DNA from: Halieaceae bacterium
Lineage (GTDB): Bacteria > Pseudomonadota > Gammaproteobacteria > Pseudomonadales > Halieaceae
Direction: 5' to 3'
Length of the DNA: 21,984 nt
Assembly: GCA_009886815.1 (NCBI GenBank)
Contig: QXYP01000235.1
Coordinates: 1-21,984, forward strand
A program made the position numbers and the translations under genes. This document shows positions 5,620 to 21,984 of the stretch, in pieces. Numbering within the stretch: the first letter of the stretch is position 1; each line of letters begins with the position of its first letter. A model generated the notes under the pieces. The model did no database searches, was not told the DNA's origin, and saw only the letters and a list, made by a program, of their open reading frames with translations.

Positions 5620-6315
5620 CTACTTGAACTGCTTAGCGCCAAACATATTGTTATACGTCTCTTCGGTGGGGTTGCCCACTTTCATATCCTCAGCCATGAC
5701 CGCGATGCCCCGTTGTACAGCCGGCCGCATGGCCACGGTCTCAGACCAGCGCTTGACGTTGGGATACTGCGTAATATCAATGCGGTGCATCTCCTGTTGC
5801 TTAGGCATGGTCCAGGGAAAGGTGGCTACGTCGGCCATGGAGTAATTCGAACCCGCCAAATATTCCGATTCACCCAAGCGTCGGTCCATAACCCCGTACA
5901 GCTGTTTGCACACCTTGTGATAGCGCTCCTTGGCCAGCGGCACATCCTCTGGACAGTAACCCTGAAAATAACCATTCTGGCCAAACATAGGGCCCACATT
6001 GCCCATCTGAAACATTAGCCATTGAATAACGTCGTAGCGTGCCACCGTGTCTTGCGGCCACAATTTGCCGGTTTTTTCAGCCAGATACATAAGAATGGCG
6101 CCCGATTCAAACACCGTATAGGGCTCACCCTGAGGGCCGTCGGTATCGACAATGGCCGGTATGCGGTTGTTGGGGCTGATGGCAATAAACGCCGGGTCGA
6201 ACTGATCGCCTTCCAAAATATTTATGGTGCAAACCTCATACTCGAGCTCAACCTCCTCGAGCATGATGGCAGTCTTGTGGCCGTTGGGCGTTGGCCAGTA
6301 ATAATGCTTAATCAT
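5620..6315 (-). CDS. yfcG: Glutathione S-transferase, YfcG (Nu-class) type
   Basis: This 231-residue protein closely follows E. coli YfcG in pattern: PTPNGHK near residue 9, ISPNNRIPAIVD near 47 and the ESGAILMYLAEKTG glutathione-site segment near 70. The C-terminal helical domain has SMADVATFPW, which carries the conserved structural Asp. YfcG-type enzymes have disulfide-bond reductase and peroxidase activity with glutathione, and act in the cytoplasm. The thioredoxin-fold N-terminal domain has the Thr/Asn-rich PTPNG site in place of a catalytic Cys. Its ATG overlaps the TGA of the upstream transferase by four bases, so the two are translationally coupled. Confidence 0.9.
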   Translation of the reverse strand: MIKHYYWPTPNGHKTAIMLEEVELEYEVCTINILEGDQFDPAFIAISPNNRIPAIVDTDGPQGEPYTVFESGAILMYLAEKTGKLWPQDTVARYDVIQWLMFQMGNVGPMFGQNGYFQGYCPEDVPLAKERYHKVCKQLYGVMDRRLGESEYLAGSNYSMADVATFPWTMPKQQEMHRIDITQYPNVKRWSETVAMRPAVQRGIAVMAEDMKVGNPTEETYNNMFGAKQFK

Positions 6316-7046
6316 TTTTGAGCACCCTGGGCTGCCAGTACCTCCTGAACATTCTTTTGCAGAAATGCTGCCGAGTCGTCGCCTTCAAAGTCGCGATTGT
6401 AGTGGCTCGTTACCGAGGGCCGTTGGATAGATTCTTCCCACCAGGCTTTCAGATTAGGGCGCCCATCGAAACAATCAAAATCCGGGTACAGGGGGTCTTT
6501 TGCGTCGTAAAAGTTCACCCTAAAATCCATATAGCTAATTGCGTGAAGCATGGACGCTTGGCCAATGTCGAAGCCATCGAAGCCCTGCTTGCAGGCGGCT
6601 TCTAGGGAATCACAGCCGCGAATAATCTTCGGCCAGATCCACTCGAAAAATTCAATGCGCTGATTTTCTTCGGGATTCCAACCCTCCATGACCAGCATGA
6701 CCGTGGTCTCAAACATGGTGTCTGCCAGAGCAAGGCGAGTAATGGCGTCCCAGCGAGCAGGTCCTGCAGGGGGGTACAGGTGATTGCCAGATTGGCTCAT
6801 GCTGTCGACGCACTCAACAACGGCCTGACTGCCATACACCACTTGGCCACTGTCCAGCGCAAGGGTTGGTACTTTGTTCAGCGGGTTTAGTGCGGCGATT
6901 GAATAGGCATCGCCCTGATCTTCCCCCGCGCGATTTTTGAAAGGGTAGGTAGGCACAAAGGTGACCTCATCCCACAGGCCGGCTTCATGAATCGTGACGA
7001 GGACCTTATGAATAAACGTATGGAACGGGGAATAAAATAATTTCAC
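6312..7046 (-). CDS. Glutathione S-transferase family protein
   Basis: This 244-residue protein has the two-domain GST layout. The thioredoxin-like N-terminus begins MKLFYSPFHTFIHKVLVTIHEAGL and contains NPLNKVPTLAL with the cis-Pro near 60, then GSQAVVECVD as the glutathione gamma-glutamyl contact. An all-helical domain includes the conserved-Asp-like segment near 170. It does not belong to the YfcG class of its partner and I cannot assign a subclass. Start is GTG at 7046 after an AGAGAG-rich stretch. It is the first gene of a two-gene unit with the YfcG-like enzyme. Together they suggest glutathione-dependent detoxification or thiol repair next to xenobiotic-type catabolic genes, but that link is inferred only from position. 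Confidence 0.85.
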   Translation of the reverse strand: MKLFYSPFHTFIHKVLVTIHEAGLWDEVTFVPTYPFKNRAGEDQGDAYSIAALNPLNKVPTLALDSGQVVYGSQAVVECVDSMSQSGNHLYPPAGPARWDAITRLALADTMFETTVMLVMEGWNPEENQRIEFFEWIWPKIIRGCDSLEAACKQGFDGFDIGQASMLHAISYMDFRVNFYDAKDPLYPDFDCFDGRPNLKAWWEESIQRPSVTSHYNRDFEGDDSAAFLQKNVQEVLAAQGAQK

Positions 7047-7478: not shown

Positions 7479-7934
7479 CTAACTGGGCCAGTATCGAACA
7501 AGAAATATCCCATTGGATATTGGGTCGGCCTCGTTAGCCCCTTGCCACTCAAATTTGTAGGCCACTCGGAAACCTTCCTGTCTACTTTCGACAGTAGCGA
7601 TTGCCATTCGTAGCGTTACCAAATCGTTTGCCGTGACTGGGCGCACTACCCGAAAGCGATCACTGCCCACAAAAAGCGCTTTAAGATCTATTAATTCAAT
7701 ATGTTGAAAAAAAGTAGAGTGTACCAAAGCAAAGGTCAGCGAGCCTGGCGCGATTATGTTGGTGAGCCCGGCCTCGTGGCATTGGTCCTCATCGAAATGG
7801 AACCAGTCAAGCTGGTCGAGGCTCTTGCAGTAGGCTTGGATTCGATCGCTATCGATTATTACAGGTTGTGACTCAAACAGAGTTTTGCCAACGCGGCTTT
7901 CGAAATCTCTTTGGGTTTGCAATATTGTCTTCAT
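7479..7934 (-). CDS. MaoC-like hot-dog hydratase (NodN type)
   Basis: This 151-residue protein is a single hot-dog domain of the MaoC/(R)-specific enoyl-CoA hydratase group, nearest in pattern to NodN-like proteins. The signature LDWFHFDED (42-50) is followed by the GLTNIIAPGSLTFAL helix region (56-70). By my alignment the position of the usual catalytic Asp is Gln41, with Asp40 and Asp43 beside it, while His46 is kept. Activity as a hydratase is therefore likely but not certain. The start is ATG at 7934, divergent from the AraC regulator at 8160. Substrate unknown; the neighbourhood suggests handling of acyl-CoA esters. Confidence 0.82.
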   Translation of the reverse strand: MKTILQTQRDFESRVGKTLFESQPVIIDSDRIQAYCKSLDQLDWFHFDEDQCHEAGLTNIIAPGSLTFALVHSTFFQHIELIDLKALFVGSDRFRVVRPVTANDLVTLRMAIATVESRQEGFRVAYKFEWQGANEADPISNGIFLVRYWPS

Positions 7935-8159: not shown

Positions 8160-9200
8160 GTGCATTCCATCCTTTTTATGATCGCGCAGAAATTTTCGAC
8201 TATTGGTCCCCTAGGTGTCGTTATCTGGCAAGCGCTGGAGGATTTAGGTATTGAACCTGAGCCCTTATTCGCAGAGGCTGGTATTGAGGTAGGGCCGCTG
8301 CTTGACCCTAATACTCGGATCGCTGACGGCGCTTTTCGAAATTTGTTGCAAGCGATTGAAGCGCAGGCCTCGGCTCGCACCTTTGGATTACATTTGGCGA
8401 AGTTTATCCATCCCACCACTTTTTACAGCTTGGGCGTAGCTGCCTATTGCAGCGCCACAATGGGTGAGTATCTTGAAAAAATGGTGCGTTACTACTCTGT
8501 GGTGACTACCAATGATGTGATGTCTCTGGTGAAAGAGGTCGGTGAATGTGCGCTGCACTGGACGACGCATAATCCAGAGCCGTTTCCTCCAATCCGTGAA
8601 GATGGCATTGCTGCCATCTTCGTAACGATTCTTCGCATAGCAAGTCAGAACGAATTTCGGCCCCGCACTGTGTCTTTGGCGCGCCCTTTCCCTGAAGATG
8701 AGGCGTCGCACTACGAGGACTTCTTTGGATGCGAGGTCCTTTTTGGTGCGCCTGAGACCTCAATATCTTTTGACCCTCAACTGCTTAAATTGCCTTTGGT
8801 TGGTGCAGATCCACAGCTCGCCCAGTCTTATGACCAGCTGACCGAACAATATATAGCTAAGCTGGAAAAAGCCGATTTCCCAGCGCGGGTTCGCAACGAA
8901 TTGGTGAGACTACTGCCCACTGGTGTATCTGGAAAAGATGCTGTGGCAAGCGTACTGTGCGTGAGTACTAGGACGCTATACAACCGTCTTGAAGAGGCGG
9001 GTACTACCTTTCGTGAGGTTCTGGATGAAACTCGCAAGCTGTTGGCTGAGGATTATCTGACAAAGGGTTTACCGGTGAACGAAATCGCTTACCTTACAGG
9101 CTTTTCTGACACTGCAAATTTTTCAAGAGCCTTTAAAAAGTGGACGGGGCTTTCACCGATGACCTACCGCATTAAAGTCGCACTCAACGACGAATCCTAA
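8160..9200 (+). CDS. AraC-family transcriptional regulator (arabinose-binding-domain type)
   Basis: This 346-residue regulator has the long N-terminal effector domain of the OruR/ArgR-like AraC proteins and a C-terminal double helix-turn-helix at about 240-340. In it, VASVLCVSTRTLYNRLEEAG is the first HTH, and INEIAYL-type residues with GFSDTANFSRAFKKWTG are the second. The residues YYSVVTTN near 121 are shared with the AraC protein at 16142, so the two are paralogues. It directly precedes the acyl-CoA synthetase at 9291 and probably controls it, responding to a pathway acid or its CoA ester. The start could be the GTG at 8160 or the in-frame ATG at 8178; neither has a strong ribosome site at ideal distance. 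Confidence 0.9.
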   Translation: MHSILFMIAQKFSTIGPLGVVIWQALEDLGIEPEPLFAEAGIEVGPLLDPNTRIADGAFRNLLQAIEAQASARTFGLHLAKFIHPTTFYSLGVAAYCSATMGEYLEKMVRYYSVVTTNDVMSLVKEVGECALHWTTHNPEPFPPIREDGIAAIFVTILRIASQNEFRPRTVSLARPFPEDEASHYEDFFGCEVLFGAPETSISFDPQLLKLPLVGADPQLAQSYDQLTEQYIAKLEKADFPARVRNELVRLLPTGVSGKDAVASVLCVSTRTLYNRLEEAGTTFREVLDETRKLLAEDYLTKGLPVNEIAYLTGFSDTANFSRAFKKWTGLSPMTYRIKVALNDES

Positions 9201-9290: not shown

Positions 9291-10814
9291 GTGGCATCAG
9301 CTAATTACACAGATTTATTGAATAAAGCTTTGGCTGATATCGGTGATGCAGTCGCGGTCGCCGATGTAACGGGGGAGTTTTACAGCGGTCACGCGTTGCG
9401 ACAGCGTATTGAGGGTATTGCCAGTCTGTTGCGAGCCTCTGGGCTAGAACGTGGCGATGGATTGGCACAGCTTGCAAGTAATTGTGTAGACGCTTTTGCC
9501 GTTATGGCAGCCTGTCTGCGCGCGGGCGTTCGTTACACGCCCCTTCATCCTCTGGGTTCTTTGGATCAGCAGCGATTTGTTGTCAATGATTCCCAAGCCA
9601 AGCTGTTGGTCATTGATTCTGCAGCATTTGCAGAGTGGGGTGCCCGATTAGCCGACGCCTTCCCCAAGCTGGCCGTGATCACGCTTTCCCGGGCAAACTT
9701 TGGTGAGTATCTGGGGGATTTATTAGTTGATCGGCCTTGGCTGGATGATCAACAAAATAGCGAAGATATTGCATGGGTTAGTTACACCGGTGGTACCACG
9801 GGTGATCCTAAGGGGGTCATGCACACACAGAGAGGTATGGGGGCGACTGCTGAGATTGCGCGAGCTGCGTGGCAGTTTCCCGAGCAGCCGCATTTTTTGG
9901 CGTGTTCACCGATCAGTCATGCGGCGGGATTTCTAGTGCTGCCAGTTTTGATGCTTGGCGGACGCGTTTCGCTGTTGCCTAGGTTCTCGCCCGAGCCGGT
10001 GATTCGATGTATTGAGAATCAGGGCGTCAATACACTCTTTCTAGTGCCCAGTATGATCTACGGACTTCTCGATCATCCTGGCGTTGGTCAAAGAGATCTG
10101 AGCAACTTGGAGCACATTATTTATGCGTCGGCGCCCATCGCACCGGAGCGGCTTCGCGAAGCCCTCCACCTTTTCGGTCCTATTTTACACCAGTGCTACG
10201 GTCAAACGGAGAGCATTCATATTACGTGTATGACACACAAGGAACACAATCCATCGGTGAGTAGGCGGCTTGAGAGTGTGGGGCGAGCGACTCTCGGTAT
10301 GACGGTGTCGGTCGTTGATGCTCGCGGTAGCGCCTTACCCCTGAAAGAGGTGGGTGAAATATGCGTTAAGGGGCCAAGTCTCCTCGCGGGTTACTGGCAA
10401 CGCCCCGAGGCTAGCGCTGAAGCGCTGCAGTCGGGGTGGCTTCATACCGGCGATGTGGGATTTATGGATGAAGAAGGGTTTCTGTTTATCGTTGATAGGC
10501 TCAAGGACATGATTATCAGCGGCGGCTTCAATATCTATTCACAGGACGTGGAGCGGGCATTGATGGCGCATGACAGCGTTGATGTTGCGGCGGTCGTTGG
10601 ACTGCCGGATCGTAAGTGGGGCGAGCGGGTGCACGCGGTAGTGGTGCTAAAAGCAGGCCGGGAGTGCTCAGAGGAAGAGCTGATTGGCTTTCTGAGGCAA
10701 AGTGCGGGCCCCTTGCTAACCCCAAAGTCCATCGAATTTGATAGTGCTTTGCCGCTTACCAACCTTGGAAAGGTAGACAAAAAGGCCATTAAGCTGCGGC
10801 TTGAAGCGGTGTAG
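9291..10814 (+). CDS. Acyl-CoA synthetase (ANL-superfamily CoA ligase)
   Basis: This is a complete 507-residue ATP-dependent CoA ligase. Its motifs are in order: P-loop YTGGTTGDPKG (165-175), SPISHAAGF near 206, YGQTES (303-308), TGD (386-388), the hinge DRLKDMII (402-409) and the catalytic Lys494 in NLGKVDKK. Members of this group activate fatty, aromatic or cyclic carboxylic acids. It lies between an AraC regulator and the Paa-like oxygenase genes, so I infer that it makes the CoA ester on which that oxygenase acts. GTG start with GGATGG a few bases upstream. A 89-bp gap with the candidate operator follows, so it may be a separate transcript from the downstream operon. Confidence 0.93.
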   Translation: MASANYTDLLNKALADIGDAVAVADVTGEFYSGHALRQRIEGIASLLRASGLERGDGLAQLASNCVDAFAVMAACLRAGVRYTPLHPLGSLDQQRFVVNDSQAKLLVIDSAAFAEWGARLADAFPKLAVITLSRANFGEYLGDLLVDRPWLDDQQNSEDIAWVSYTGGTTGDPKGVMHTQRGMGATAEIARAAWQFPEQPHFLACSPISHAAGFLVLPVLMLGGRVSLLPRFSPEPVIRCIENQGVNTLFLVPSMIYGLLDHPGVGQRDLSNLEHIIYASAPIAPERLREALHLFGPILHQCYGQTESIHITCMTHKEHNPSVSRRLESVGRATLGMTVSVVDARGSALPLKEVGEICVKGPSLLAGYWQRPEASAEALQSGWLHTGDVGFMDEEGFLFIVDRLKDMIISGGFNIYSQDVERALMAHDSVDVAAVVGLPDRKWGERVHAVVVLKAGRECSEEELIGFLRQSAGPLLTPKSIEFDSALPLTNLGKVDKKAIKLRLEAV

Positions 10815-10855: not shown

Positions 10856-10877
10856 ACATACCGTATAGTAGGTATGT
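10856..10877. promoter_or_regulatory. 22-bp perfect palindrome, candidate TetR-family operator
   Basis: ACATACC (10856-10862) and GGTATGT (10871-10877) are perfect inverted 7-bp arms around an 8-bp spacer containing TATAGT (10864-10869), a good -10-like hexamer. Size, symmetry and the ACATAC/GTATGT arm are typical of TetR-family operators such as the AcrR box. It lies 26 bases before the PaaA-like start, where a repressor would block the operon promoter. I found no good -35 at the right distance. The TetR gene at 17192, last in the same operon, is the natural candidate ligand. Confidence 0.6.
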
Positions 10878-10903
10878 ATGAAAAAGCCACGGTAGGAAAA
10901 AAA

Positions 10904-11851
10904 ATGTCGCAGCCAATGACAGCGGTTGATCCCCAAGAGCAGGCGCTACTAGAACGCATACACGCCGGCGAATTGATCGAGGATATGCAGGAGTTGACGC
11001 CTCGCTATCGCGCAATTCTGGAGCGAACCCTCGAGATTGCTGCGCAGTCTGAAGTGACGGTGCTGACGTGGGCTTACACCGCGTTCAGAGTTGCGCCAGA
11101 TATCGGGGCCAAAGTCGCGATCTGTGGAACCATTCAGGACGAAGTGGGACATGCCCACCAACAGGGCATGCTCTTTGAGCGCTTTGGTTTTGATATGCAG
11201 AAGGTCGCTTTTGAGGCGGATCCCAGAAAATACTGGTCGCTGCCCATTATGGAGTTTCCTGTCAGAAATTATGCAGAGTTTGTGGTTTCACAGGCATTCC
11301 TCGATCGAGCTGGTCGTTTTACGACGTGGGACATCGAGCTCAATTGCAGCTTTGCGCCCTATCGGCGGACGTTAAAAAAAGTCAATTTTGAGGAGGCTTA
11401 TCATTTTCGTCATGGCGCGATGTGGACGGAGTTCTATTTCAATCAGAACGATGAGACTAAAGAACTGGTTGAAGATGCCGTCCGCTGGATCTTTCCCTGG
11501 GGTTACCACTGGTACGGACGTCCGGACGATTTAAAGGGATACCCGGATCAGCTGAACTACAAGGTTCGCGCGTGGAGTAACGACACCATGCGCAATAAAT
11601 GGCTCCGGTCAGCGACTGACTTTGCTGACCGGGTCGGCCTCAAGGTGCCTGCAGAGAAGGACGAAGAAACCGGTGAGTATCGTATTACCGATATGCCTTA
11701 CCCAATGACCTTTGATGCAGGAGCCCATGATTGGGAATGGGAAGAGACCAGTTGGGATCGTGCTATCGGCAAGTTCAAGTCTGGTGGGCCGATGCGTCCC
11801 TCCTGCTACGAGCGTTTGCAGCGGGAAGAATGGGGTGATCAGTTGTGGTAA
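10904..11851 (+). CDS. PaaA-like diiron oxygenase catalytic subunit
   Basis: The 315-residue product belongs to the PaaA/PaaC ferritin-like family (Pfam PaaA_PaaC). PaaA is the catalytic subunit of the phenylacetyl-CoA epoxidase. The carboxylate-bridged diiron site is intact: Glu50 (SEVTV), Glu80 and His83 (QDEVGH), Asp134 (FLDRAG), Glu164 and His167 (EEAYH). This spacing matches the ligands I recall for E. coli PaaA (E42, E72, H75, D126, E156, H159) with a constant shift of eight. Overall identity looks low, so the substrate is probably not phenylacetyl-CoA. I chose ATG 10904 because AGGA lies six bases before it; the in-frame ATG at 10874 sits inside the palindrome. It overlaps the next gene by seven bases. 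Confidence 0.88.
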   Translation: MSQPMTAVDPQEQALLERIHAGELIEDMQELTPRYRAILERTLEIAAQSEVTVLTWAYTAFRVAPDIGAKVAICGTIQDEVGHAHQQGMLFERFGFDMQKVAFEADPRKYWSLPIMEFPVRNYAEFVVSQAFLDRAGRFTTWDIELNCSFAPYRRTLKKVNFEEAYHFRHGAMWTEFYFNQNDETKELVEDAVRWIFPWGYHWYGRPDDLKGYPDQLNYKVRAWSNDTMRNKWLRSATDFADRVGLKVPAEKDEETGEYRITDMPYPMTFDAGAHDWEWEETSWDRAIGKFKSGGPMRPSCYERLQREEWGDQLW

Positions 11852-12159
11852 CCGAGGGCGCCGTAGCTGAGGTACTCAATGGTGTGATGGATCCGCACAT
11901 GAACGTTAGCCTCCCTGATATGGGCATGGTCCGAAGAATTACGGTTTCAGAAGACGGTGATGTCGATGTTGGGTTGGTGTTCCCGTGCGTGGGTTGTCCG
12001 GCTTGGGATTTGATCCAAAACGATATCAAGCGTTCGGTTGGCGCGCTTGCGGGCGTGCGCTCCACCAAAGTGAGGGTTGAGTGGCAACACGAATGGAGCC
12101 GGGACGACATCGTTCCCGAGGCTCGACTTATTGCACGTGAACATGGTTATTGCATCTAG
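11845..12159 (+). CDS. PaaD N-terminal-domain protein (MIP18/DUF59 family), split from its zinc ribbon
   Basis: This 104-residue protein corresponds to the first two thirds of PaaD. It has the MIP18/DUF59 fold: PDMGMVRRI near 27, VGCPAWDLI near 49 with the conserved Cys, and a C-terminal EWSRDDIVPEARLIAREHG that matches the PaaD segment just before its zinc ribbon. DUF59 proteins act in Fe-S or metal-centre maturation, and PaaD is needed for an active Paa epoxidase. Here the chain ends right where the E. coli protein continues into the Cys-rich ribbon, which is encoded by a separate gene at 12418. GTG start, overlapping the PaaA-like stop, so translation is probably coupled. Confidence 0.85.
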   Translation: MVTEGAVAEVLNGVMDPHMNVSLPDMGMVRRITVSEDGDVDVGLVFPCVGCPAWDLIQNDIKRSVGALAGVRSTKVRVEWQHEWSRDDIVPEARLIAREHGYCI

Positions 12160-12168
12160 GAGCTAAAG

Positions 12169-12414
12169 GTGGGTTTAGTCACGCAAAAAACAGCGCGCAA
12201 TACCATGGACTGGGACTATTTTGAGGTATTTGCGCGGGAGGAGCTTGACGGACCCCTGTTTCATTTGGGCTCTGTCAGTGCGCCAAACAGGGCTGCAGCG
12301 GTGGGCCAGGCAAGGATGGTGTACTCGGAAAAACCCTGGGTAGAAATGTGTATTTGTCCTCGTGCCGAGGTGATACCGGTGATCTCGGTTAACGACATGA
12401 TCGGGATTGCTTAA
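12169..12414 (+). CDS. PaaB-like oxygenase subunit
   Basis: The 81-residue product resembles PaaB, the small subunit that bridges PaaA-PaaC dimers in the phenylacetyl-CoA epoxidase. After a short leader it shows WDYFEVFAREELDGPLFHLGS, comparable to the YEVFVR...HVGSL start of PaaB, then NRAAAVGQARMVYS and a WVEMCICPRAEVIPV strand. It is slightly shorter than the usual 95 residues. An AGGAG at 12158-12162, six bases before the GTG, sets the start in preference to the ATG at 12205. It is flanked by the two halves of PaaD. Confidence 0.82.
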   Translation: MGLVTQKTARNTMDWDYFEVFAREELDGPLFHLGSVSAPNRAAAVGQARMVYSEKPWVEMCICPRAEVIPVISVNDMIGIA

Positions 12415-12417
12415 GCC

Positions 12418-12639
12418 GTGGCTGAGGGGCGCGATAGCACCAAGGGTCGTTCTAGCAGCCTGACAGAGTTGTTCGGGTTGCAATACGACGCGACCGTCGC
12501 CTGCCCTTGGTGTGGATCGGAGAGCACGCGTGTTTCGAATCCCTTTGGCGGTACGGTGTCGGAAATGAGTATGCAGTGTAATCAGTGTAAGGCTACTTTT
12601 GGATGGATGAAGTGGCAGGACAAACTTCCCGGGCAGTAG
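12418..12639 (+). CDS. PaaD C-terminal zinc-ribbon protein, encoded separately
   Basis: This 73-residue protein has a disordered start and then a zinc ribbon: CPWC (about 30-33) and CNQC (about 54-57), with FGGTVSEMSMQCNQC resembling the FGSTACKALYRCDSC end of E. coli PaaD. The aromatic-rich tail FGWMKW mirrors FDYFK. In the usual PaaD this ribbon follows the DUF59 domain in one chain; here a PaaB-like gene lies between the two coding pieces, so a simple frameshift cannot explain it. GTG start three bases after the PaaB-like stop. Presumed role: metal binding during assembly of the oxygenase. Confidence 0.83.
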   Translation: MAEGRDSTKGRSSSLTELFGLQYDATVACPWCGSESTRVSNPFGGTVSEMSMQCNQCKATFGWMKWQDKLPGQ

Positions 12640-12665
12640 TTCGGGGCAGCGAGTGGGAGAGAGAG

Positions 12666-13517
12666 ATGTCTGGAACAGACAAGGCGTTGATGCAGGAGTT
12701 ACTGTGTATTGCCGATACCGACTGGGTGTTAGGACACTGGTATATCAAAGTGATGCTCAATGGCCGCAGTCTCCCCGATTGCACAGCATTCGCGGGTATG
12801 GGGCAGGACAGCCTGGGCCATACACGGGCGATTTTTCGGCTGTTGGAAGATCGTCTTGGACTGCCCGAGCACCAGCTTGAGTTTGGTCGCCAACCTAGCG
12901 AATTACATGATCTTGAGGCGTTGTCGCTTCCTCCACAGAACTGGGGTGATTTCCTCGTCACTGCGTTCTTGGCGGAATGTGCAGTATGGCGCCTACTTTC
13001 AACCTTTTTAGAGGGGAGCGACAAAGCGCTATCGGGCATGGTGAAGCATTTTGGCAAGGAGCTCTATTTTCACCGGTTGGGCCTCGAGGGCTGGATGACG
13101 GCGACTAGCAATGAAGAGCAGGACGACATGCGGCAGTCACTCGCCATACGGGGGCCTACGGTAGCGCGCTGGTTTGGCGATGTTGCTGCAGCGGATTTGC
13201 TTTTAGACGCAGGTATTAGAGCGGCGTCACTTGAATCTGCACGGTCAGGTTTTATAGACGATGTGGTCGATGTGCTGGCTCAAGCAACGGGCTTGGAGCC
13301 GACAGAAATACAATCGAAGCTGCGTTGCGAGTGCCCAGATGACTGGGACTCAGTGCGACGCAAGTGCCGCGGTGCAACTGTACCGCCAACTTTGTGGGAG
13401 TTCATGGTACCGACAGATCCCGACACCGTGACTCTGAGGCGCCCCCTCGCTGTCAGCGTTGACGACAATCTCGATTTAGTTGACCGCGCGGAGTACAGCC
13501 ATACCGATTACGCATAA
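12666..13517 (+). CDS. PaaC-like structural subunit of the oxygenase
   Basis: The 283-residue product is the second PaaA/PaaC-family member in the operon. PaaC is the catalytically inactive ferritin-like partner that anchors PaaA. Recognisable parts are LCIADTDWVLGHW near 12, GMGQDSLGHTRAIFRLLEDRLG near 43 and GKELYFHRLGLEGWM near 135. It retains partial D-x-x-G-H and E-x-x-x-H patterns, but not the full ligand set of PaaA. It is about 30 residues longer than E. coli PaaC, mainly at the C-terminus (WEFMVPTDPDTVTLRRPL onward). I placed the start at ATG 12666, with GGAG six bases upstream, not at the in-frame ATG 12603, which overlaps the zinc-ribbon gene. Confidence 0.84.
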   Translation: MSGTDKALMQELLCIADTDWVLGHWYIKVMLNGRSLPDCTAFAGMGQDSLGHTRAIFRLLEDRLGLPEHQLEFGRQPSELHDLEALSLPPQNWGDFLVTAFLAECAVWRLLSTFLEGSDKALSGMVKHFGKELYFHRLGLEGWMTATSNEEQDDMRQSLAIRGPTVARWFGDVAAADLLLDAGIRAASLESARSGFIDDVVDVLAQATGLEPTEIQSKLRCECPDDWDSVRRKCRGATVPPTLWEFMVPTDPDTVTLRRPLAVSVDDNLDLVDRAEYSHTDYA

Positions 13518-13563: not shown

Positions 13564-14745
13564 ATGACAAAATCTGGTCTCGCGATTGTAGGGATCGCGG
13601 AGGTGCCCACGCGCCGTGATCCTGAGCGTCAGCGCTGGGACATACTGCTGGATGTCTGTATGGGAGCGATTCGTGACGCGGGAATAGATAAGAATCTTAT
13701 CGGTGCTGTCATTTCGAATAATCCGATGGCGCAGCCCTCGATGCAAAATGATATGTCGCTGGGAAAAATTCCCGAGGTCATGGGCCTGAAAGGCTGTCGC
13801 GACATCGCAATTTGCAATGCGGGGGGCGCATCCACAACCAACTGTTTGCGGCTGGCAGAGCAGCACATCGCCAGCGGTCAGGTAGACTACGTACTGATTC
13901 CACACACCACTGTTCAGTCCGATATGCCGCCTCAGGACCTCATCAACTTCTTTGCTACCGCACCCCTCGATAAGCAATTTGAATATCCGTATGGCGTAAG
14001 TTTTAACGGATCAATGGGTCTTATTACTCAGCGCTACATGTATGAGACCGGTGCAACGGAGGAAGAGTTAGCTTCTGTGACAGTTGCTTTACGGGCCTGG
14101 GGCGCCCTCGATCCGCTGTCTATCTTTTATGGTAAAACCGTAACCTTGGACGACGTCATGAACTCTCGCATGATTAGCACACCATTGAAGGCTAAGGAAT
14201 GTAATTTGCTGGCAGATGGTGGCGGAGCGATGGTGGTCACCTCATGGGAAAAGGCTCGGGAGTTAGGTGATAAGGCGGTTTACAAATTGGGACATGGCAC
14301 CCGTTTTATGAGTGCTACACCCATGCTTCGCGAGGATGTGTTTCACCGCCAAGCTTACCGCGAGTCCAGTCGCGACGCGTTGTCCCAGGCTGGGCTGTCA
14401 ATCCACGATATGGACCTCAGGCAGATCTATGGCGCCTACCCCTATACGCAATGTAGCGCGCTCGAGGGTTATGGCGTTTGCGAGGACGGACAGGGAGCAA
14501 AGCTCTGGGCGGAGGGACGTTGTGGTCCCGGAGGCGACTTGCCCTGCACGACCATGGGCGATGCCACTGGAAGAGGACATACAGGCAGTGGCGTCAGTAT
14601 GGCGTTCTACCTCGATAGCGTCCGCCAATTGCGCGGCGAGGCCGGGGATCGTCAGGTCGATCAATGTGAACACGCGATTCTGACCACTTCCGGTGGTTCC
14701 GTGATGAATACCTGCACCACGGTTTTTGGGAGGAAGCCACGATGA
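13564..14745 (+). CDS. SCPx-type thiolase / Ltp2-like aldolase
   Basis: This 393-residue protein has the thiolase fold of the SCPx/lipid-transfer group. Where thiolases have the nucleophilic Cys, the sequence reads NAGGAS (85-90), so by eye the position is Gly88. The His of the GHP-like motif is kept in GRGHTGSG (His339), and a late Cys384 remains. The tyrosine-rich IYGAYPYTQ (288-296) lies where Ltp2 has one of its catalytic tyrosines. Ltp2-type enzymes cleave beta-hydroxyacyl-CoA esters by retro-aldol reaction and need a DUF35 partner, which is the next gene. I therefore prefer aldolase over beta-ketothiolase. Strong AGGAGGGAG ribosome site; the stop overlaps the next start (ATGA). Confidence 0.88.
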   Translation: MTKSGLAIVGIAEVPTRRDPERQRWDILLDVCMGAIRDAGIDKNLIGAVISNNPMAQPSMQNDMSLGKIPEVMGLKGCRDIAICNAGGASTTNCLRLAEQHIASGQVDYVLIPHTTVQSDMPPQDLINFFATAPLDKQFEYPYGVSFNGSMGLITQRYMYETGATEEELASVTVALRAWGALDPLSIFYGKTVTLDDVMNSRMISTPLKAKECNLLADGGGAMVVTSWEKARELGDKAVYKLGHGTRFMSATPMLREDVFHRQAYRESSRDALSQAGLSIHDMDLRQIYGAYPYTQCSALEGYGVCEDGQGAKLWAEGRCGPGGDLPCTTMGDATGRGHTGSGVSMAFYLDSVRQLRGEAGDRQVDQCEHAILTTSGGSVMNTCTTVFGRKPR

Positions 14746-15149
14746 GCGACTATAAAAAGCCGTTGCCCGAAATACAGCCTTATAGTCAGCCCTTCTGGGA
14801 TGGGACCAAAAAGGGACTTTTACTCATACAGCACTGCAATGCCTGTGATGCCAATATTTTTTATCCGCGCCGCGACTGCCCAGATTGCTGGAGTCAGGAC
14901 TTGGGATGGATTAAAGCCTCCGGGCGTGCGACGGTTTATACGTATTCCGTAACCTATGAGGGTGTGGAGCAAAAATTTGTGGAGGATTTGCCGATCATTT
15001 TGGCGTGGATAGATCTGCCTGAGGGAATCCGCATGCACACCAACCTAGTGGAATGCCAGCCTGAGGACGTCGCCATTGGGATGGAGGTCGAGGTAGTCTT
15101 TCGCTCGATTACCGAGGACATCACCCTGCCTTTTTTTAGACCGGTATAG
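14742..15149 (+). CDS. DUF35 zinc-ribbon/OB-fold acyl-CoA-associated protein
   Basis: This 135-residue protein begins with the rubredoxin-like ribbon of the DUF35 family (Cys32, Cys35, Cys46, Cys49 in HCNACD...DCPDC). An OB-fold follows (SGRATVYTYSVTYEG near 66, LPIILAWIDLPEG near 90). Stand-alone DUF35 proteins bind thiolase-fold partners and acyl-CoA; the DUF35 domain of ChsH2 is required by the Ltp2 aldolase. The start codon overlaps the stop of the thiolase-like gene, the arrangement expected for subunits of one complex. AGGA precedes the ATG. Confidence 0.92.
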   Translation: MSDYKKPLPEIQPYSQPFWDGTKKGLLLIQHCNACDANIFYPRRDCPDCWSQDLGWIKASGRATVYTYSVTYEGVEQKFVEDLPIILAWIDLPEGIRMHTNLVECQPEDVAIGMEVEVVFRSITEDITLPFFRPV

Positions 15150-15152
15150 TCT

Positions 15153-15710
15153 ATGAGCGACGTCGGCTGGGGGTTGTGGGGCAGCTGGGAGGAGACCGAG
15201 GCATGCCTCAACACGGTGGTTGGTGAATGGTGGGGTCCGGACCCTGTTGAGCCGGGCAGTATCCGCCGTTGGCTTGAGCCCAAGGAGTTTGACTGCGCAA
15301 TTCATACCGATGTCGGCGCTGCTCGTGCCGTCGGTTTTCCAGATCTGGTGGCGCCCGCTTCGATGGTGTTTAGCTATGGTGTAGCGCCTTACTGGTTACC
15401 CGGAGATTCCTCGAAGTCTATCGACGATGAACCCACCCAAATACAGATACCGGTGATCTTTAATGTGCCCGCGCCTTGTAATAAAAGTTTTGCCACCAGT
15501 ATGGAAGTCGAGTTTAACGAACCGTTGTATCCGGGTGACGTGGTTGGATGCGTTAGCAGACTAATCGATATTCAGCGCAAAACGCTGAAAGTAGGCCCCG
15601 GCGCATTTCTTAGGCAGGAAGATACCTATACTAAGCAATCGGGAGAGGTTATTGCGGTGGCTAATCTCGATATCTTCCGCTTCTATGTGGAACAGGGCGT
15701 GACCAAATGA
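15153..15710 (+). CDS. MaoC-like N-terminal hydratase subunit (FAS1-type dehydratase)
   Basis: This 185-residue hot-dog protein belongs to the MaoC_dehydrat_N/FAS1-like group. The segment DVGAARAVGFPDLVAPASMVFSY (about 51-73) is the central hot-dog helix region, and a substrate-side strand follows (SFATSMEVEFNEPLYPGD). It lacks the usual Asp-x4-His hydratase dyad, which the next gene has. This pattern fits a two-chain hydratase like the ChsH1/ChsH2 MaoC pair of steroid side-chain degradation, where one chain is catalytic and the other shapes the pocket. It starts three bases after the DUF35 stop and overlaps the next gene by four bases. Confidence 0.85.
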   Translation: MSDVGWGLWGSWEETEACLNTVVGEWWGPDPVEPGSIRRWLEPKEFDCAIHTDVGAARAVGFPDLVAPASMVFSYGVAPYWLPGDSSKSIDDEPTQIQIPVIFNVPAPCNKSFATSMEVEFNEPLYPGDVVGCVSRLIDIQRKTLKVGPGAFLRQEDTYTKQSGEVIAVANLDIFRFYVEQGVTK

Positions 15711-16126
15711 CCGAGAAACTTGCCAAAGCTCCGGCGGTTGGAGACGTGCTACCTGCCATTGAAATTCCCATTACCTTACAGCGGCTAGTTATGGAAGCAG
15801 GGGCAAATCGAGATTTTTCACTCATGCACCATGATTCTGCTGTGGCGCAATCGGCCGGTGCCAGTGCAGCTTTCGCTAATACCTTTTTCCTTATGGGTAT
15901 GTTCGAGCGGCTCGTGCGTAACTGGGCTGGGTCTTGCATACGATTTAAAAAAATAGGGCCGCTAAAGATGCTAAATTTCAATGTGGTGGGGGATACGCTT
16001 TTATTTCGGGGTAAGGTTGTCGCTATTGATGAAGTAGAGCGAGGGGAAAAATGGTTGTTGAATCTCTGGTGTGAAAGTGGGCGAGGCCAAACGACGACCT
16101 GCATGGTAGAGGTGATAAAAGAATAG
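15707..16126 (+). CDS. MaoC-like catalytic hydratase subunit
   Basis: This 139-residue hot-dog protein carries the hydratase signature ANRDFSLMHHD, with Asp36 and His41 in the positions of the catalytic pair of (R)-hydratases. A small-residue helix follows (ASAAFANTFFLMGMFERLV). It is coupled by an ATGA overlap to the preceding MaoC-like gene, so the two probably form a heteromeric enoyl-CoA hydratase that adds water to an unsaturated CoA ester. The product would then be a suitable beta-hydroxyacyl-CoA for the thiolase-like aldolase upstream. The exact substrate is unknown. Confidence 0.86.
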   Translation: MTEKLAKAPAVGDVLPAIEIPITLQRLVMEAGANRDFSLMHHDSAVAQSAGASAAFANTFFLMGMFERLVRNWAGSCIRFKKIGPLKMLNFNVVGDTLLFRGKVVAIDEVERGEKWLLNLWCESGRGQTTTCMVEVIKE

Positions 16127-16141
16127 AGACAGGGGGATGAA

Positions 16142-17188
16142 ATGAGGCAAGTAATTTCGGCAGCGGCACTTCCCGCAGGGGAATCCGTCTCAATGAGTAG
16201 CATTCAGGGCGTTGCGACAACACTCGACAAGCTGGGTGTCGATACCCACGGCGTGCTCATGGAGGCGGGTGTGGCTCCAGAGGCCTTGGCTCAGAGCTTT
16301 GAACGTGTGCCGATCCAATCACTATCGCAAATTATTTCTAGAGCAGTGAGCTCGGAGCTGGGGCCGTTGTTTGGATTAAAATTTGCGGAGAATGTGCACG
16401 CCACAACTTACCACTGCTACGGTTTGATGCTTATTTCATCGCCCACACTTAGACAGTTTTGTACCAGATTAGCCCGTTATTATGCATGGGTCACCACTAA
16501 CAAGTCGGTGTCATTTGATGTGGTTAATGGCAGAGCGATGCTTGTTTATCACTGCCATGAGGAGGCCGGTGACAGTCCTATGGCGCGCCTTGCGCGGCTC
16601 TCGGGTTGGGCGGCTACCTGGGTCCGAATGCTGAGAATGGTCTCTTCGCCCGGCTTTGCGCCTGTTGAAGTGCAATTTTCGTCACCGCCGCCCTTGGGTT
16701 TTGTGGATGATTATGAACACTATTTTCGCTGCCCGCTGAAGTTTGGAAGTGCCATTGACGCCTTGTGCTTTGACGCTTCTGTGTTGGATGAGCCATTGGC
16801 GGGTGGTAATGCCGAGCTCGCAAGACGAAGTGAGCGCCAGGTTTTCGATCATCTTCGGCTCATGGGCTCTGTTGATCTCGAAACTCAGATTCGAATGGCA
16901 CTTTTTGAGCTTTTGCCCATGGGGGCTTATGACAGGCGGGACATCGCCGCATGGTTGGGTATGGAGGATTGCCGTCTCAAAGTTGCACTGCAGCAAGCGG
17001 GGCTGAGTCATCACCAGATTGTTCTAAGGACGCGTCAGGAATTGGCGGCGGAGCTGGTATCCCATTCCGGTAAGTCGATTAACGAAATTTCTTATCATTT
17101 GGGCTTCAGCGACTGCAGTAACTTCGCCCGTAGCTATAGGAAGTGGTTCGGGTGTTGCCCGTCAGAGCGACGCGCCGGCGGGGTTTGA
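16142..17188 (+). CDS. AraC-family transcriptional regulator, paralogue of the one at 8160
   Basis: This 348-residue regulator has the same architecture as the AraC protein at 8160, with matching segments: ATTYHCYGLMLIS against PTTFYSLGVAAYC, and RLARYYAWVTTN against KMVRYYSVVTTN. The DNA-binding part is at about 250-345, with INEISYHLGFSDCSNFARSYRKWFG as the second helix-turn-helix. GGGGGATGA before the ATG gives a ribosome site, 15 bases after the MaoC stop, so it is transcribed with the catabolic genes and may act in autoregulation. The N-terminal domain probably senses a pathway intermediate. Confidence 0.9.
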   Translation: MRQVISAAALPAGESVSMSSIQGVATTLDKLGVDTHGVLMEAGVAPEALAQSFERVPIQSLSQIISRAVSSELGPLFGLKFAENVHATTYHCYGLMLISSPTLRQFCTRLARYYAWVTTNKSVSFDVVNGRAMLVYHCHEEAGDSPMARLARLSGWAATWVRMLRMVSSPGFAPVEVQFSSPPPLGFVDDYEHYFRCPLKFGSAIDALCFDASVLDEPLAGGNAELARRSERQVFDHLRLMGSVDLETQIRMALFELLPMGAYDRRDIAAWLGMEDCRLKVALQQAGLSHHQIVLRTRQELAAELVSHSGKSINEISYHLGFSDCSNFARSYRKWFGCCPSERRAGGV

Positions 17189-17191
17189 TGC

Positions 17192-17812
17192 ATGCAGCCA
17201 GCCAGACGCAGTAACGAGGAGCGACGAGAGCAAAGTGTTCAGCACGTGCTGGCTGCTGCTCTGCAACTTTTTGTATCACAGGGCTACGAAAACGCTACTA
17301 TCGATGCCATAGCGGCAAAAGCTGGGCTCACCAAAGGTGCAGTGTATTTTTATTTTAAGGGCAAAGTGGCTTTGCTCCATGCACTGTTGGACGATGCCGA
17401 AGCTTTGTATGCAGGGATTTTTGAGCAAATGCGAACTTCTCGTGAGGGCCCGGTAGAGCAATTGAGCATGTTTGTGGATTGGTGTGCGGAGACCGGCGCT
17501 AAAAATCAGGAGCTGCTGGTACTCCCCATACTGGTTTCCCTTCAGGCGATGGGTAAGGAGCCGGCTGTAGCGGAACATGTTCGTAAGATGTATGACCGCT
17601 ACCATGAGGAGATGAACCGCATAGCCACTGAAGGGCAGGCCCTTGGCCTGTTTGACGACAAAGTCGCGATCAAGGAACGGGCGGCGGTCTTGGTGGCTCT
17701 TACTGACGGTATGTTGCTTGAGTGGTATCGATTTGCAGACACCCTCGATGGCAGGGCTCTGGCGGAAAGTGCCAAAGCCCAAATTTTGCATGGTTTGGGT
17801 GTGGCGTCCTAA
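17192..17812 (+). CDS. TetR-family transcriptional repressor
   Basis: This 206-residue protein has a classical TetR N-terminal DNA-binding domain (about 14-62): LQLFVSQGYENATIDAIAAKAGLTKGAVYFYFKGK. A helical ligand domain follows, including a short DGMLLEWYRF segment near the end that is common in acyl-CoA- or aromatic-responsive members. It begins three bases after the AraC stop, so it is the last gene of the eleven-gene run. The palindrome at 10856-10877 is its most likely operator. The stop codon overlaps that of the convergent hydrolase gene by four bases. Confidence 0.93.
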   Translation: MQPARRSNEERREQSVQHVLAAALQLFVSQGYENATIDAIAAKAGLTKGAVYFYFKGKVALLHALLDDAEALYAGIFEQMRTSREGPVEQLSMFVDWCAETGAKNQELLVLPILVSLQAMGKEPAVAEHVRKMYDRYHEEMNRIATEGQALGLFDDKVAIKERAAVLVALTDGMLLEWYRFADTLDGRALAESAKAQILHGLGVAS

Positions 17813-18894
17813 CCGCTCAATACCTTTGCTGATTTATGCAGGGCGTCTTCAGCCTCGTTCCAAATCATGGTCTTCCAGTCATCAAACTCCGGATACATGA
17901 CTCGGCGTAGTTCCTCTTTGATCGCCTTGCCCTGTTCGGACTGCAAATCTCCGTAGGCATGAAGCCAGTTATCCTGTTGATGAGCGCCCAGTACTTCATC
18001 GGGAGGGTAAGTGCCATATTCAATGACAAAGGCATAGGTTTGTTTGTCCGGCAGAATCCAATCCATTGCTAGAACAATAGGCCCTTCCGGATCAACGGGG
18101 AGATCCTCATCGAAAGCTTCTTTGACGGCTGTCGAGCGCATTGCTGATCCAAACTGGGTATTGAGGACACTAAAGCGCGGGTCATTCTCAGGATAACCGT
18201 GAACAAGATAAGGAACGCCGTAGGGCCCTAACCCTGTATGAATGTCAATGAGCAAGACGGTTTTCTGATCCTTCAGCCAGCGCCTCAGTCCAGCCACCAT
18301 GACTTCCTGAGACCAAGCAGGCTTGGTGTCACCATAGAACAGGCCATCGGCATGAGTCCGTTGACCGCCCAGCATCGCCGCCATATACGCCACTGCGCCG
18401 TGCGCCTCGCGATAATCCTCGAGCACTCTCTTGGCATCCGGGTCATCGATTGCTCGCGGCACAAACGCATCGTGTAAAGCGTCGTACTCTGGGTTGCCTC
18501 GCAGCGGCTGATTGAAATCAACATAGTTGCGATTCAGGTCCACGTTACCTTCGGTGGTTCTTCGGGTCCATGCAAAGCCATAGGGATTATGGGCGTGAAC
18601 CAGAACGATGCGGTGGTTCGCGAACAGCTCACGGAACTCGGGTGAAGTGAGAAACCCCAATTGGCAGGCAGATCCGGTATAGCCCTCTGGACCATGGGTG
18701 CCGCTGACAATAACTAATGCAGTAGCGGCATCGGCCGGCCCACCCACTGCAAAATCCATGGCCAGCTCTTCGCCAGCCGGGCCTGAAATGTCCAGCACCT
18801 GAGAGTGGATACTAAAGCCGCAGTCATTGGCTGCGTCCAGAAAGCGCTCACGGGCCTCTGAGTAGGATTTTGAAAACAGAGTCGCTGAATCCAT
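17809..18894 (-). CDS. DUF2817 M14-like zinc hydrolase
   Basis: The 361-residue product belongs to the DUF2817 group of M14-type metallo-carboxypeptidase/AspA-like proteins. Metal and substrate residues are visible: His67 and Glu70 in THGPEG, NRN (121-123), His219 in LLIDIHTGLG and the general-base Glu292 in IEYGTYP. The frame extends further to a TTG at 19020, but the extra 42 residues look non-coding and have no ribosome site; family members begin close to FSKSYSEARERFL, so I prefer ATG 18894. Such enzymes cleave C-terminal amide or peptide bonds; the substrate is unknown. Divergent from the MFS transporter, with which it may form an uptake and hydrolysis pair. Confidence 0.87.
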   Translation of the reverse strand: MDSATLFSKSYSEARERFLDAANDCGFSIHSQVLDISGPAGEELAMDFAVGGPADAATALVIVSGTHGPEGYTGSACQLGFLTSPEFRELFANHRIVLVHAHNPYGFAWTRRTTEGNVDLNRNYVDFNQPLRGNPEYDALHDAFVPRAIDDPDAKRVLEDYREAHGAVAYMAAMLGGQRTHADGLFYGDTKPAWSQEVMVAGLRRWLKDQKTVLLIDIHTGLGPYGVPYLVHGYPENDPRFSVLNTQFGSAMRSTAVKEAFDEDLPVDPEGPIVLAMDWILPDKQTYAFVIEYGTYPPDEVLGAHQQDNWLHAYGDLQSEQGKAIKEELRRVMYPEFDDWKTMIWNEAEDALHKSAKVLSG

Positions 18895-19138
18895 AACGCA
18901 AATTCGCTTGGCAAGTGAACACTTAGCATGTCCGTCGCCATACAGGTAAGCAAGCTCCGAAAGTTGAATGACAGGATATTTGCTGAAATTGCTATCTACC
19001 CGTAGTGTGTATTTGGTCAAGGTAAACAGGCTTCGAAAATAAAAAAATGATGATCTGACCCTGTGCTGACGCGAGTGTTCTATTAAAGAGCCCTATAGAT
19101 CACGGGGTAGGGTGCGAAGAAAAGCAGATGGAGGCGGT

Positions 19139-20383: not shown

Positions 20384-20394
20384 AATAGAGGCTT

Positions 20395-21984
20395 TCAGGC
20401 CGTTGGTGGATGGGTGATTGTAGCGGGCGGCTCAAATGCTTTTAGGTGCGGTAGGGGGGCGTCATATTTCTCGATCTCGACCATACAGGTATGCGCAGAG
20501 CAACCTTGAGCCAACATGGAAGTGCCCATGTCAGGCGTCAGTGCATTTGGGTTGCCGTGAACCTCAAGTGTCTCACCATCAATTTTTTGGGAGTCAAACC
20601 AAGCTCCTGTGGGCAACTCGATAACGCCGGGCATAATGGCTTCTGAGATGAGCACCCCGGCGAGACAAGCGCCTCGTGCATTGAATATTTTGACAATATC
20701 ACCTTGCTTAAGTCCGCGTATCACTGCATCCGCTGCGTTGAGGCGAAGGGTTTCCCGGCCAGATATTTTTGAAACTTGGCTTGACCGAGCATGATCGAGT
20801 TGACTGTGGAGCTTGTGTTTGGGCTGATTTGACACTAGATGCAGCGGGTACCTTTGGGATGGGTTCCCCAGCCATTCGTCTCGATCGTACCAGCGTGGGT
20901 GGCCCCGGCAATCTGGATACTGAAAGGCGTCAATCTTCTCAGAAAAAATCTCGATTTTTCCGCTAGGGGTTCTCAATGGGTGAGCGTTCGGATTCTGACG
21001 AAATTTTTCGAGCATGAATTCAGCGCGGGGGAGTTGATCTCCAAAACTGATTTGCTCACCTTGCCAAAATTCATCGAAGTCCGGAAGTGAGATCGCCTGC
21101 GCGGCCGCATTACTTTTTGTCTCCTCATACAGACACCGCACCCAGGCCATTTCGTCGCGATGCTGGGTAAATGAAGGCGCAAACCCCAGCTTCTCTGCAA
21201 GAGCGGAAAACACCGCGTAATCACTTCGAGAGTTGGCAAAAGGTGAGGTCGCGGCATGCATGGGAGTCAGATACTCATCGTAGGCACTACCCCCCACATC
21301 ATTGCGCTCTAAAAAAGTACTGATCGGAAACACAATGTCCGCGTGCTTTGCAGTAGCGGTCCAAAACGATTCATTAACAATAATGGTTTGTGGCTTCTGC
21401 CAAGCGCGGCGCAAACGATTAAGATCTTGGTGATGGTGATAGGGGTTGCCGCCAGCCCAGTAGATGAGCTTTATGTCTGGGTAGGTTAATCGTTGACCAT
21501 TGTAGTTGAAGCTCTGCCCGGGCTTTTCCAGCATATCGGCGAGTCGTGCTACGGGGATAAAGTGGTTTTCAGCGGTGATGCGCTCTCCGACTTCTTCGCC
21601 AAATGCGCCAATCCGGAAGTTGGGAATCTTTCTGCTGCCAAAACCCATATTGTGGATGCAGCCATATCCATACCCGATCCCTGCTCCAGGTCTGCCGATA
21701 AATCCCAACATTGCTCCTAGTACGGTGACCATCCACCAGGTTTGCTCGCCGAATAGTTGTCGTTGGAGTGACCAGCTCACACTGATCAGGCTTGGGGCGT
21801 TGCTAGCGGCTCGCGCGAGATCAACAATAAGGTCTTCTGGCACTCCCGACAGCTCGCTCGCCCAGCGTGCTGTTTTGGGCTCGCCATCCGTCTCGCCTGT
21901 TAGGTAGGGAACGAACCTGTGGAAGCCGGTCGTGTATTCATCGATGAAGTGTTTATCGTATCGGTTTTCGATGTAGAGCGTGTG
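20395..21984 (-). CDS. Molybdopterin oxidoreductase, BisC/TorA/DMSO-reductase type, C-terminal part, cut by window edge
   Basis: The frame is open to the right edge, so 529 residues of a protein usually about 750-800 long are visible; the N-terminus is outside. The sequence follows the DMSO-reductase family. LIYWAGGNPYHHHQDLN and NESFWTATAKHADIVFP are molybdopterin-domain segments, and the C-terminal dinucleotide-binding domain has LHLVSNQPKHKLHSQLD, LPTGAWFD and HGNPNALTPDMGTSMLAQGCSAHT. This C-terminal pattern is that of biotin sulfoxide/TMAO/DMSO reductases that reduce S- or N-oxides. Whether it is periplasmic cannot be judged without the N-terminus. Convergent with the MFS gene, only 11 bases away. 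Confidence 0.92.
   Translation of the reverse strand, partial: HTLYIENRYDKHFIDEYTTGFHRFVPYLTGETDGEPKTARWASELSGVPEDLIVDLARAASNAPSLISVSWSLQRQLFGEQTWWMVTVLGAMLGFIGRPGAGIGYGYGCIHNMGFGSRKIPNFRIGAFGEEVGERITAENHFIPVARLADMLEKPGQSFNYNGQRLTYPDIKLIYWAGGNPYHHHQDLNRLRRAWQKPQTIIVNESFWTATAKHADIVFPISTFLERNDVGGSAYDEYLTPMHAATSPFANSRSDYAVFSALAEKLGFAPSFTQHRDEMAWVRCLYEETKSNAAAQAISLPDFDEFWQGEQISFGDQLPRAEFMLEKFRQNPNAHPLRTPSGKIEIFSEKIDAFQYPDCRGHPRWYDRDEWLGNPSQRYPLHLVSNQPKHKLHSQLDHARSSQVSKISGRETLRLNAADAVIRGLKQGDIVKIFNARGACLAGVLISEAIMPGVIELPTGAWFDSQKIDGETLEVHGNPNALTPDMGTSMLAQGCSAHTCMVEIEKYDAPLPHLKAFEPPATITHPPTA

Follow-up and report, generated by a model that had tools for sequence, protein, structure and literature searches.

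A widespread PaaA/PaaC-type diiron oxygenase variant whose iron-site surround and operon both differ, found here in Halieaceae

The DNA stretch considered here (positions 1 to 21,984 of contig QXYP01000235.1, Halieaceae bacterium assembly GCA_009886815.1; as a whole referred to as the window) carries on its plus strand an operon for a multicomponent oxygenase related to the phenylacetyl-CoA epoxidase PaaABC(D)E. An acyl-CoA ligase gene is followed by the oxygenase genes A, D, B, Z and C, and further by genes for a thiolase-fold protein, a DUF35 protein, the MaoC-type proteins MaoC1 and MaoC2, and an AraC- and a TetR-family regulator; the genes overlap in several places and otherwise lie no more than 59 bases apart (Table 1). 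The initial annotation had named PaaA-, PaaB-, PaaC- and PaaD-like parts, linked to an SCPx/Ltp2-like protein, DUF35 and two MaoC hydratases; all of these have been found in this one operon, and Z, missed earlier, joins them as an added part. The genome is a 2.7-Mb draft of 374 contigs and has been taken as Luminiphilus, Halieaceae, because the cluster genes are 96–100% identical to those of the marine gammaproteobacterium HTCC2080 (L032) and of a Luminiphilus metagenome-assembled genome (L033). The system is a well-defined and widespread variant of the PaaA/PaaC oxygenases, in which the surround of the iron site is altered and the operon is a different one.

Relatives have been collected by a profile search of genome contigs with five sequences, which yielded 205 relatives; the 80 best of them were retained. 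In a 72-row tree of A (47 clade loci, thinned from 86, 21 canonical PaaA, three haloarchaeal sequences of canonical type and one from Streptomyces), all 47 clade rows lie on one side at 100/100 and the 21 canonical rows, including the genome's own PaaA, lie opposite (unrooted), the apparent sharpness of this split being affected by the choice of clade members according to their similarity to the query. The phylogeny proposed earlier as a check has therefore placed A outside the canonical PaaA clade. Its own clade extends over several bacterial phyla and the haloarchaea. Among the best 30 rows of a tblastn search of plasmids, proteins of Natrialbaceae, Agrobacterium, Thermus and haloarchaea appear at 30–37% identity (E about 1e-50 or better), followed after a gap by canonical PaaA at 25–28% (E 1e-18 or weaker). 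BoxB, which is not part of the tree, has been compared with A by model and fold: the BoxB model TIGR03225 finds no match in the window genome at E ≤ 0.001, the fold comparison of A gives a lower score for BoxB than for PaaA, and BoxB (3PM5) is a longer single chain, unlike A. The Streptomyces sequence is a plasmid PaaA homologue (L174:4956-5843) located beside two KAS III genes; it has Asn at the D126 iron-ligand position and keeps K68 without E49, possibly as a biosynthetic variant.

The reported conservation of the six diiron ligands in the PaaA-like subunit has been confirmed by the ligand columns, in which A holds E60, E90, H93, D144, E174 and H177. The positions of the E. coli lysine bridge, E49/K68, are occupied by A67/T86, and that of F108 by M126. 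Indeed, the bridge is absent from all 85 clade rows and present in all 24 canonical rows, and the Phe108 position is Met throughout the window's subclade (19/19). A role in electron transfer has been proposed for the lysine bridge of PaaA, and its absence here provides a natural test of that feature. Because both the bridge and Phe108 are lost in A, a different substrate or chemistry is likely. At the level of family models, A and C pass the gathering cut-off of 28.5 bits for Pfam PaaA_PaaC (PF05138), and the NCBIfam equivalog cut-offs of the four Paa subunits are all missed (77.4 against 280 bits for A and 37.6 against 133.35 for C; B and D in Table 1).

The same genome encodes a canonical paa cluster on another contig (C17), the PaaA_PaaC pair of which (320.2 and 303.5 bits) comprises the only other proteins of this family in the genome. 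On C17, the equivalog cut-offs are passed by paaZ, paaG, a paaJ/pcaF thiolase, paaA, paaC and paaD, the last with D and Z in one piece, and paaB and paaE (391.8 bits, cut-off 420.8) are recognisable, in a search for these genes that covered the contig beyond its first 8 kb. Window A and this canonical PaaA share 26.6% identity, and no paaG, paaZ, paaJ or paaE has been recognised beside the window cluster by Pfam and NCBIfam scans, which covered 20 window open reading frames. The view that the cluster is no duplicate beside a complete paa cluster has thus held. An indoleacetamide-hydrolase-like amidase gene (L166:2235-3737; 509.9 bits against a cut-off of 532) lies beside the genome's canonical paa cluster.

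With PaaABC(D)E of E. coli and Klebsiella (3PVR, 4IIT) the window system shares the PaaA fold, the six ligands, an inert PaaC-like partner, a PaaB-like bridge, DUF59 and zinc-ribbon helpers and the CoA-ligase context. In C, the iron ligand set is no longer intact (D, S, H, E, L, H). PaaABC(D)E is arranged as A-B-C-D, whereas the clade shows A-D-B-Z-C or A-D-B-C-Z, with a split PaaD and without PaaE and paaG, paaZ or paaJ alongside. Z is a 73-codon open reading frame with two CxxC motifs that matches the PaaD model in its final section only, and stands separately in 82 of 86 loci, the remaining four being cut by contig ends. That PaaD is split in this clade alone has been rejected: the three haloarchaeal loci with canonical-type PaaABCD and a 55-residue 'PaaE' (L172, L173, L179) share the split zinc ribbon with the window clade, although they fall on the canonical side of the tree, keep lysine bridge and Phe108 intact and are ordered A-B-C-D-Z. 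D and Z are fused in all eight other loci with a canonical-side A, one of them the divergent Streptomyces locus; the control loci L169 and L171, with no D, B or Z match, have been left out of this count. The NCBIfam haloarchaeal 'PaaE' (NF041869, 56 positions; L172:7484-7651) is not a reductase but a zinc ribbon akin to the C-terminal end of PaaD. In the incomplete plasmid gene tables, the Z gene is unlisted at L030:11297-11473 and at about 14310-14477 of L028. Regarding B, two tandem genes occur in Thermus, Rubrobacter and some other loci (e.g., L029:10238-10626), and seven of eight clade B proteins scanned, including window 12169-12414, give sub-cut-off matches to TIGR04031 ('Htur_1727 family rSAM-partnered candidate RiPP'), a family that may be related to PaaB and not consist of RiPP precursors.

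Table 1. Genes of the oxygenase operon and its surroundings in the window, with the matches on which their assignment is based.
Feature	Position	Strand	Evidence
AMP-binding acyl-CoA ligase, FadD type, first operon gene	9291..10814	+	AMP-binding 246.3 bits; synteny
A, PaaA-like catalytic diiron subunit	10874..11851 (alternative ATG 10904)	+	PF05138 118.1 bits
D, DUF59 half of PaaD	11845..12159	+	PF01883 63.7 bits; TIGR02159 54.7 bits, cut-off 108.15
B, PaaB-like bridging subunit	12169..12414	+	PF06243 29.9 bits, cut-off 27; TIGR02157 21.8 bits, cut-off 85.45
Z, zinc ribbon, detached end of PaaD	12418..12639	+	TIGR02159 positions 102-144 of 146, 29.2 bits
C, PaaC-like structural subunit	12603..13517	+	PF05138 68.8 bits; iron ligand columns
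Thiolase-fold (SCPx/Ltp2-like) protein	13564..14745	+	Thiolase_C_1 116.3 bits; matches to 4u4e, 7yvy, 9myr, BbsB, Ltp2 6ok1
DUF35 protein (zf-ChsH2 + OB_ChsH2_C), thiolase-fold partner	14742..15149	+	PF01796 71.1 bits; PF12172 40.1 bits
MaoC1, MaoC-type	15153..15710	+	FAS1_DH_region 58.2 bits; 4w78/4wnb longer chains, E about 1e-5
MaoC2, MaoC-type hydratase	15707..16126	+	4w78_B/4wnb_B E 4e-9; Pfam MaoC 20.4 bits, under cut-off
AraC-family regulator	16142..17188	+ (operon strand)	Arabinose_bd + HTH_18
TetR-family regulator	17192..17812	+ (operon strand)	TetR_N
AraC-family regulator upstream of ligase	8160..9200	+	Arabinose_bd 123.3 bits
Divergent, weakly MaoC-like protein	7479..7934	-	MaoC-like 5i7n_A E 1.9e-4; family F10 in 14 loci
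DMSO/TMAO-reductase-family molybdoenzyme, C-terminal part (contig end nearby)	20395..21843	-	1eu1_A residues 300-777, E 2.8e-117

The thiolase-fold protein lacks the Cys nucleophile, as GGAS replaces CASG in the window and in nine of ten near relatives, the tenth (L047) keeping G87, G88 and S90. Among six distant haloarchaeal homologues, four have the Cys (ACAASG) and the other two show no site readable by the pattern. The protein is probably an aldolase. Ltp2 (6ok1) ranks fifth among its solved matches, the closest being a different protein, and in the alignment to 6ok1 at the positions that we take to be the catalytic tyrosines of Ltp2, Y294 and Y344, one Tyr meets Tyr and the other meets His. 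The structure model of the protein was poor (predicted local distance difference test, pLDDT, 43.5) and has not been used. MaoC2 contains the DxxxxH dyad (D36/H41), which is found in all five of its relatives, and MaoC1 is without it, as are six of its seven relatives, with an off-position match in L034. The only solved relatives of MaoC1 are the longer ChsH1-ChsH2 chains (4w78, 4wnb), and the best of MaoC2 are the shorter ones. According to PMC11321319, one of the two halves of ChsH1-ChsH2 is inert, and DUF35 connects the hydratase with the aldolase. The ChsH1-ChsH2-Ltp2 and Shy-Sal complexes share with the window the MaoC pair with one dyad, DUF35 and the Cys-less thiolase-fold partner; they differ in that the window DUF35 is a separate gene and that the module sits in a diiron oxygenase operon.

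In a survey of 140 Halieaceae genomes, the oxygenase has been found in 11, and the thiolase-fold gene in nine, all of them among these carriers. Of the two remaining, G748 has a thiolase-fold fragment at the end of a short contig (L036), so that the gene was missed due to a contig cut, and G724, a genome scored as 100% complete, has none, the AraC gene standing immediately 3' of C within one contig (L035). Two further lineages carry the module close to the cluster in a different arrangement, on the opposite strand in L047 and after a ferredoxin gene in L048. Neighbouring families have further been counted by BLAST with a few probes, which gives rough and probably low numbers, in 65 long loci of at least 15 kb, 12 of them near (the window's subclade) and 53 far. 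A PaaE homologue has been found by these probes in none of the 65 long loci, and a stand-alone 2Fe-2S ferredoxin in 19. The latter lies directly 3' of C in L047 and L048, as it does in L049, a shorter locus, and in haloarchaea it is found close to A. In Luminiphilus, ferredoxin homologues are encoded elsewhere in the genome (6/6 genomes), and we infer that a ferredoxin serves as donor there.

An indolepyruvate:ferredoxin oxidoreductase-family gene (IOR, PRK13030-type) has been sought in all 11 carriers, of which seven have contigs holding at least 12 kb downstream of A. Six of these seven, all of the window's genus, carry IOR 10.4–12.2 kb downstream of A, as for example G755, in which positions 16434 and 27408 give a distance of 10,974 bases. 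The window genome (G000) has an IOR copy that runs to the end of contig C245. Best full-length IOR proteins of genomes without the oxygenase are 44–53% identical to the query versus 53–59% for the linked copies, so that the two sets touch, and the non-carrier G710 has an additional 63% fragment. Downstream in HTCC2080 there are also an aminotransferase of class I/II, two acyl-CoA dehydrogenases and a TonB receptor, and in L038 and L043 IOR occurs together with RidA. The links to IOR and aminotransferase suggest a substrate derived from an amino acid as its acyl-CoA; which one, we infer.

Taking into account the homology, the kept iron ligands and the linked CoA-ligase genes, A is likely to function in an acyl-CoA oxygenase, and phenylacetyl-CoA is an unlikely main substrate. 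The earlier proposal of a CoA-ester oxygenase with another substrate is thereby supported at the sequence level by the clade split, the lost lysine bridge and Phe108, the retained ligands and the CoA-ligase linkage. The best joint explanation, to which we assign a probability of roughly 0.4, is a non-phenylacetyl diiron acyl-CoA oxygenase acting on an arylacetyl-CoA and followed by a ChsH/Ltp2-type retro-aldol work-up; among several proposals, that of an arylacetyl-CoA has the best support, at less than even odds. One may postulate that A binds the iron pair and the acyl-CoA, with C as inert partner and B as bridge, and that D and Z help to load metal, these roles of B, C, D and Z being assigned by analogy. 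Electrons would come from a ferredoxin system instead of PaaE, and the A complex would oxygenate (epoxidise or hydroxylate) an arylacetyl-CoA that originates from an aromatic amino acid or the corresponding 2-oxo/2-hydroxy acid; indole-3-acetyl-CoA and 4-hydroxyphenylacetyl-CoA would be the first candidates. The product would be processed by the MaoC hydratases within a ChsH1/ChsH2/Ltp2-type module (MaoC pair, DUF35, Cys-less thiolase fold), in which a retro-aldol step would cut a C-C bond. CoA-ester oxygenation, substrate class, donor, step order and aldol chemistry are predicted in this scheme. The wider claim, that the A-D-B-Z-C clade is an unnamed bacterial and archaeal family of acyl-CoA diiron oxygenases without lysine bridge and PaaE, which opens a new aerobic aryl-CoA route (e.g., for indole-3-acetyl-CoA) with a retro-aldol end in marine Halieaceae, appears doubtful as a whole.

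Several observations weigh against the arylacetyl-CoA scheme. No ferredoxin gene has been seen next to the cluster in the window or in Luminiphilus, the Ltp2 position taken as Y344 is His in the window protein, and L035 and L038 have no thiolase-fold gene following C. IOR copies are present in eight of ten genomes without the oxygenase, and G684, a carrier of another genus, has no IOR in its 18 kb downstream of A and copies on other contigs, for which reasons IOR as a strict marker has been rejected. Four of the 11 carriers (G000, G720, G748, G682) have contigs too short to show the linkage, and IOR occurs in two of the 12 near and none of the 53 far long loci, many near loci stopping just short of its usual position. 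Given these gaps in IOR and the thiolase gene between loci, substrate and partners may differ between branches. In addition, the Phe108 position is still Phe in 51 of 86 rows of the wider clade, the substrate is taken as aromatic on the basis of family names, the indolepyruvate specificity of the PRK13030-type enzyme being putative, and the likeness to ChsH fits a steroid-type route equally well and is compatible with a polycyclic substrate.

In such a route, a polycyclic or alicyclic acyl-CoA of steroid, terpenoid or naphthenic type would be the substrate and the ChsH/Ltp2-like module would remove its side chain. This is rather unlikely, even though Ltp2 and ChsH1/ChsH2 are steroid side-chain enzymes (PMC11321319), the MaoC pair with its single dyad is nearest to the ChsH1-ChsH2 chains and comes together with DUF35 and a thiolase fold lacking the Cys, and genomes with the thiolase-fold gene also carry the oxygenase. 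Ltp2 is not the nearest solved match to the thiolase-fold protein, no steroid ring gene has appeared among the scanned genes of the window and the near loci, where no search was aimed at them, and the IOR and aminotransferase genes point to amino acids. A benzoyl-CoA-type (box-like) oxygenase, by which ligase, oxygenase, crotonase and aldehyde dehydrogenase would open a benzoyl-CoA-like ring in the wider clade, draws on the 53 far long loci, in which crotonase (43), acyl-CoA ligase (34) and aldehyde dehydrogenase (22) are found, a gene set reminiscent of the paa as well as the box route. With 370.7 bits, the Haloterrigena ligase falls just short of the cut-off of the benzoate-CoA ligase family (375.25 bits), and PaaA has been crystallised with benzoyl-CoA both as the E49Q K68Q mutant (4ii4 title) and as wild type (3pvr). 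For the window's enzyme such a function is nevertheless improbable, as the near subclade is poor in crotonase (3/12) and aldehyde dehydrogenase (1/12, same probes) and differs in pocket residues, so that it need not share the substrate.

Another diiron chemistry on acyl-CoA, such as desaturation or heteroatom oxidation tied to the nearby S/N-oxide reductase gene, is quite improbable. The loss of the lysine bridge may alter the chemistry, and a homologue of the window molybdoenzyme, of this reductase family, lies directly 3' of C in L045 and directly 3' of the ferredoxin gene in L047 (TIGR00509 884 bits, under its cut-off); however, the reductase gene is more distant in the window, and the complex retains all five of its parts. 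A second, diverged phenylacetyl-CoA epoxidase would account for the same fold and iron ligands, and is very improbable in view of the canonical paa cluster in the same genome, the loss of lysine bridge and Phe108, scores far under all Paa equivalog cut-offs and the lack of recognised paaG, paaZ, paaJ and paaE alongside.

Returning to the arylacetyl-CoA proposal, the linked genes yield short and testable lists of substrates. The clade also bears on annotation, since its members are annotated as 'phenylacetic acid catabolic protein' or even paaA. In a 2026 survey (PMC13186573), PaaA and PaaC are put forward as robust markers for the degradation of phenylacetate, and all 32 halobacterial cases, Haloterrigena turkmenica included, are assigned a partial configuration, defined there as PaaA-PaaC only. 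The copy on the H. turkmenica plasmid pHTUR01 belongs to the window's clade, and with this one case placed, part of the 32 seemingly incomplete archaeal pathways may be another enzyme. No description of the clade has been found in the literature searched, a coverage that excludes most subscription journals. A seemingly archaeal 'PaaA-like' paper (PMC2948915) was set aside, the name denoting an E1-like enzyme there.

Among the neighbouring genes, the acyl-CoA ligase lies upstream of A in most Halieaceae relatives; none of the 25 best NCBIfam models listed for it reaches its cut-off. The divergent MaoC-like gene is retained beside the cluster in relatives, its DxxxxH pattern being unsteady among them. 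Genes for a DUF2817 peptidase-like protein, a major facilitator superfamily transporter and the DMSO-reductase-family enzyme (window 17809-21843) accompany the cluster in several relatives. A tandem pair of glutathione S-transferase genes (window 5620-7046) has a more than 90% identical copy near the cluster in L040 and is located elsewhere in HTCC2080 (L197).

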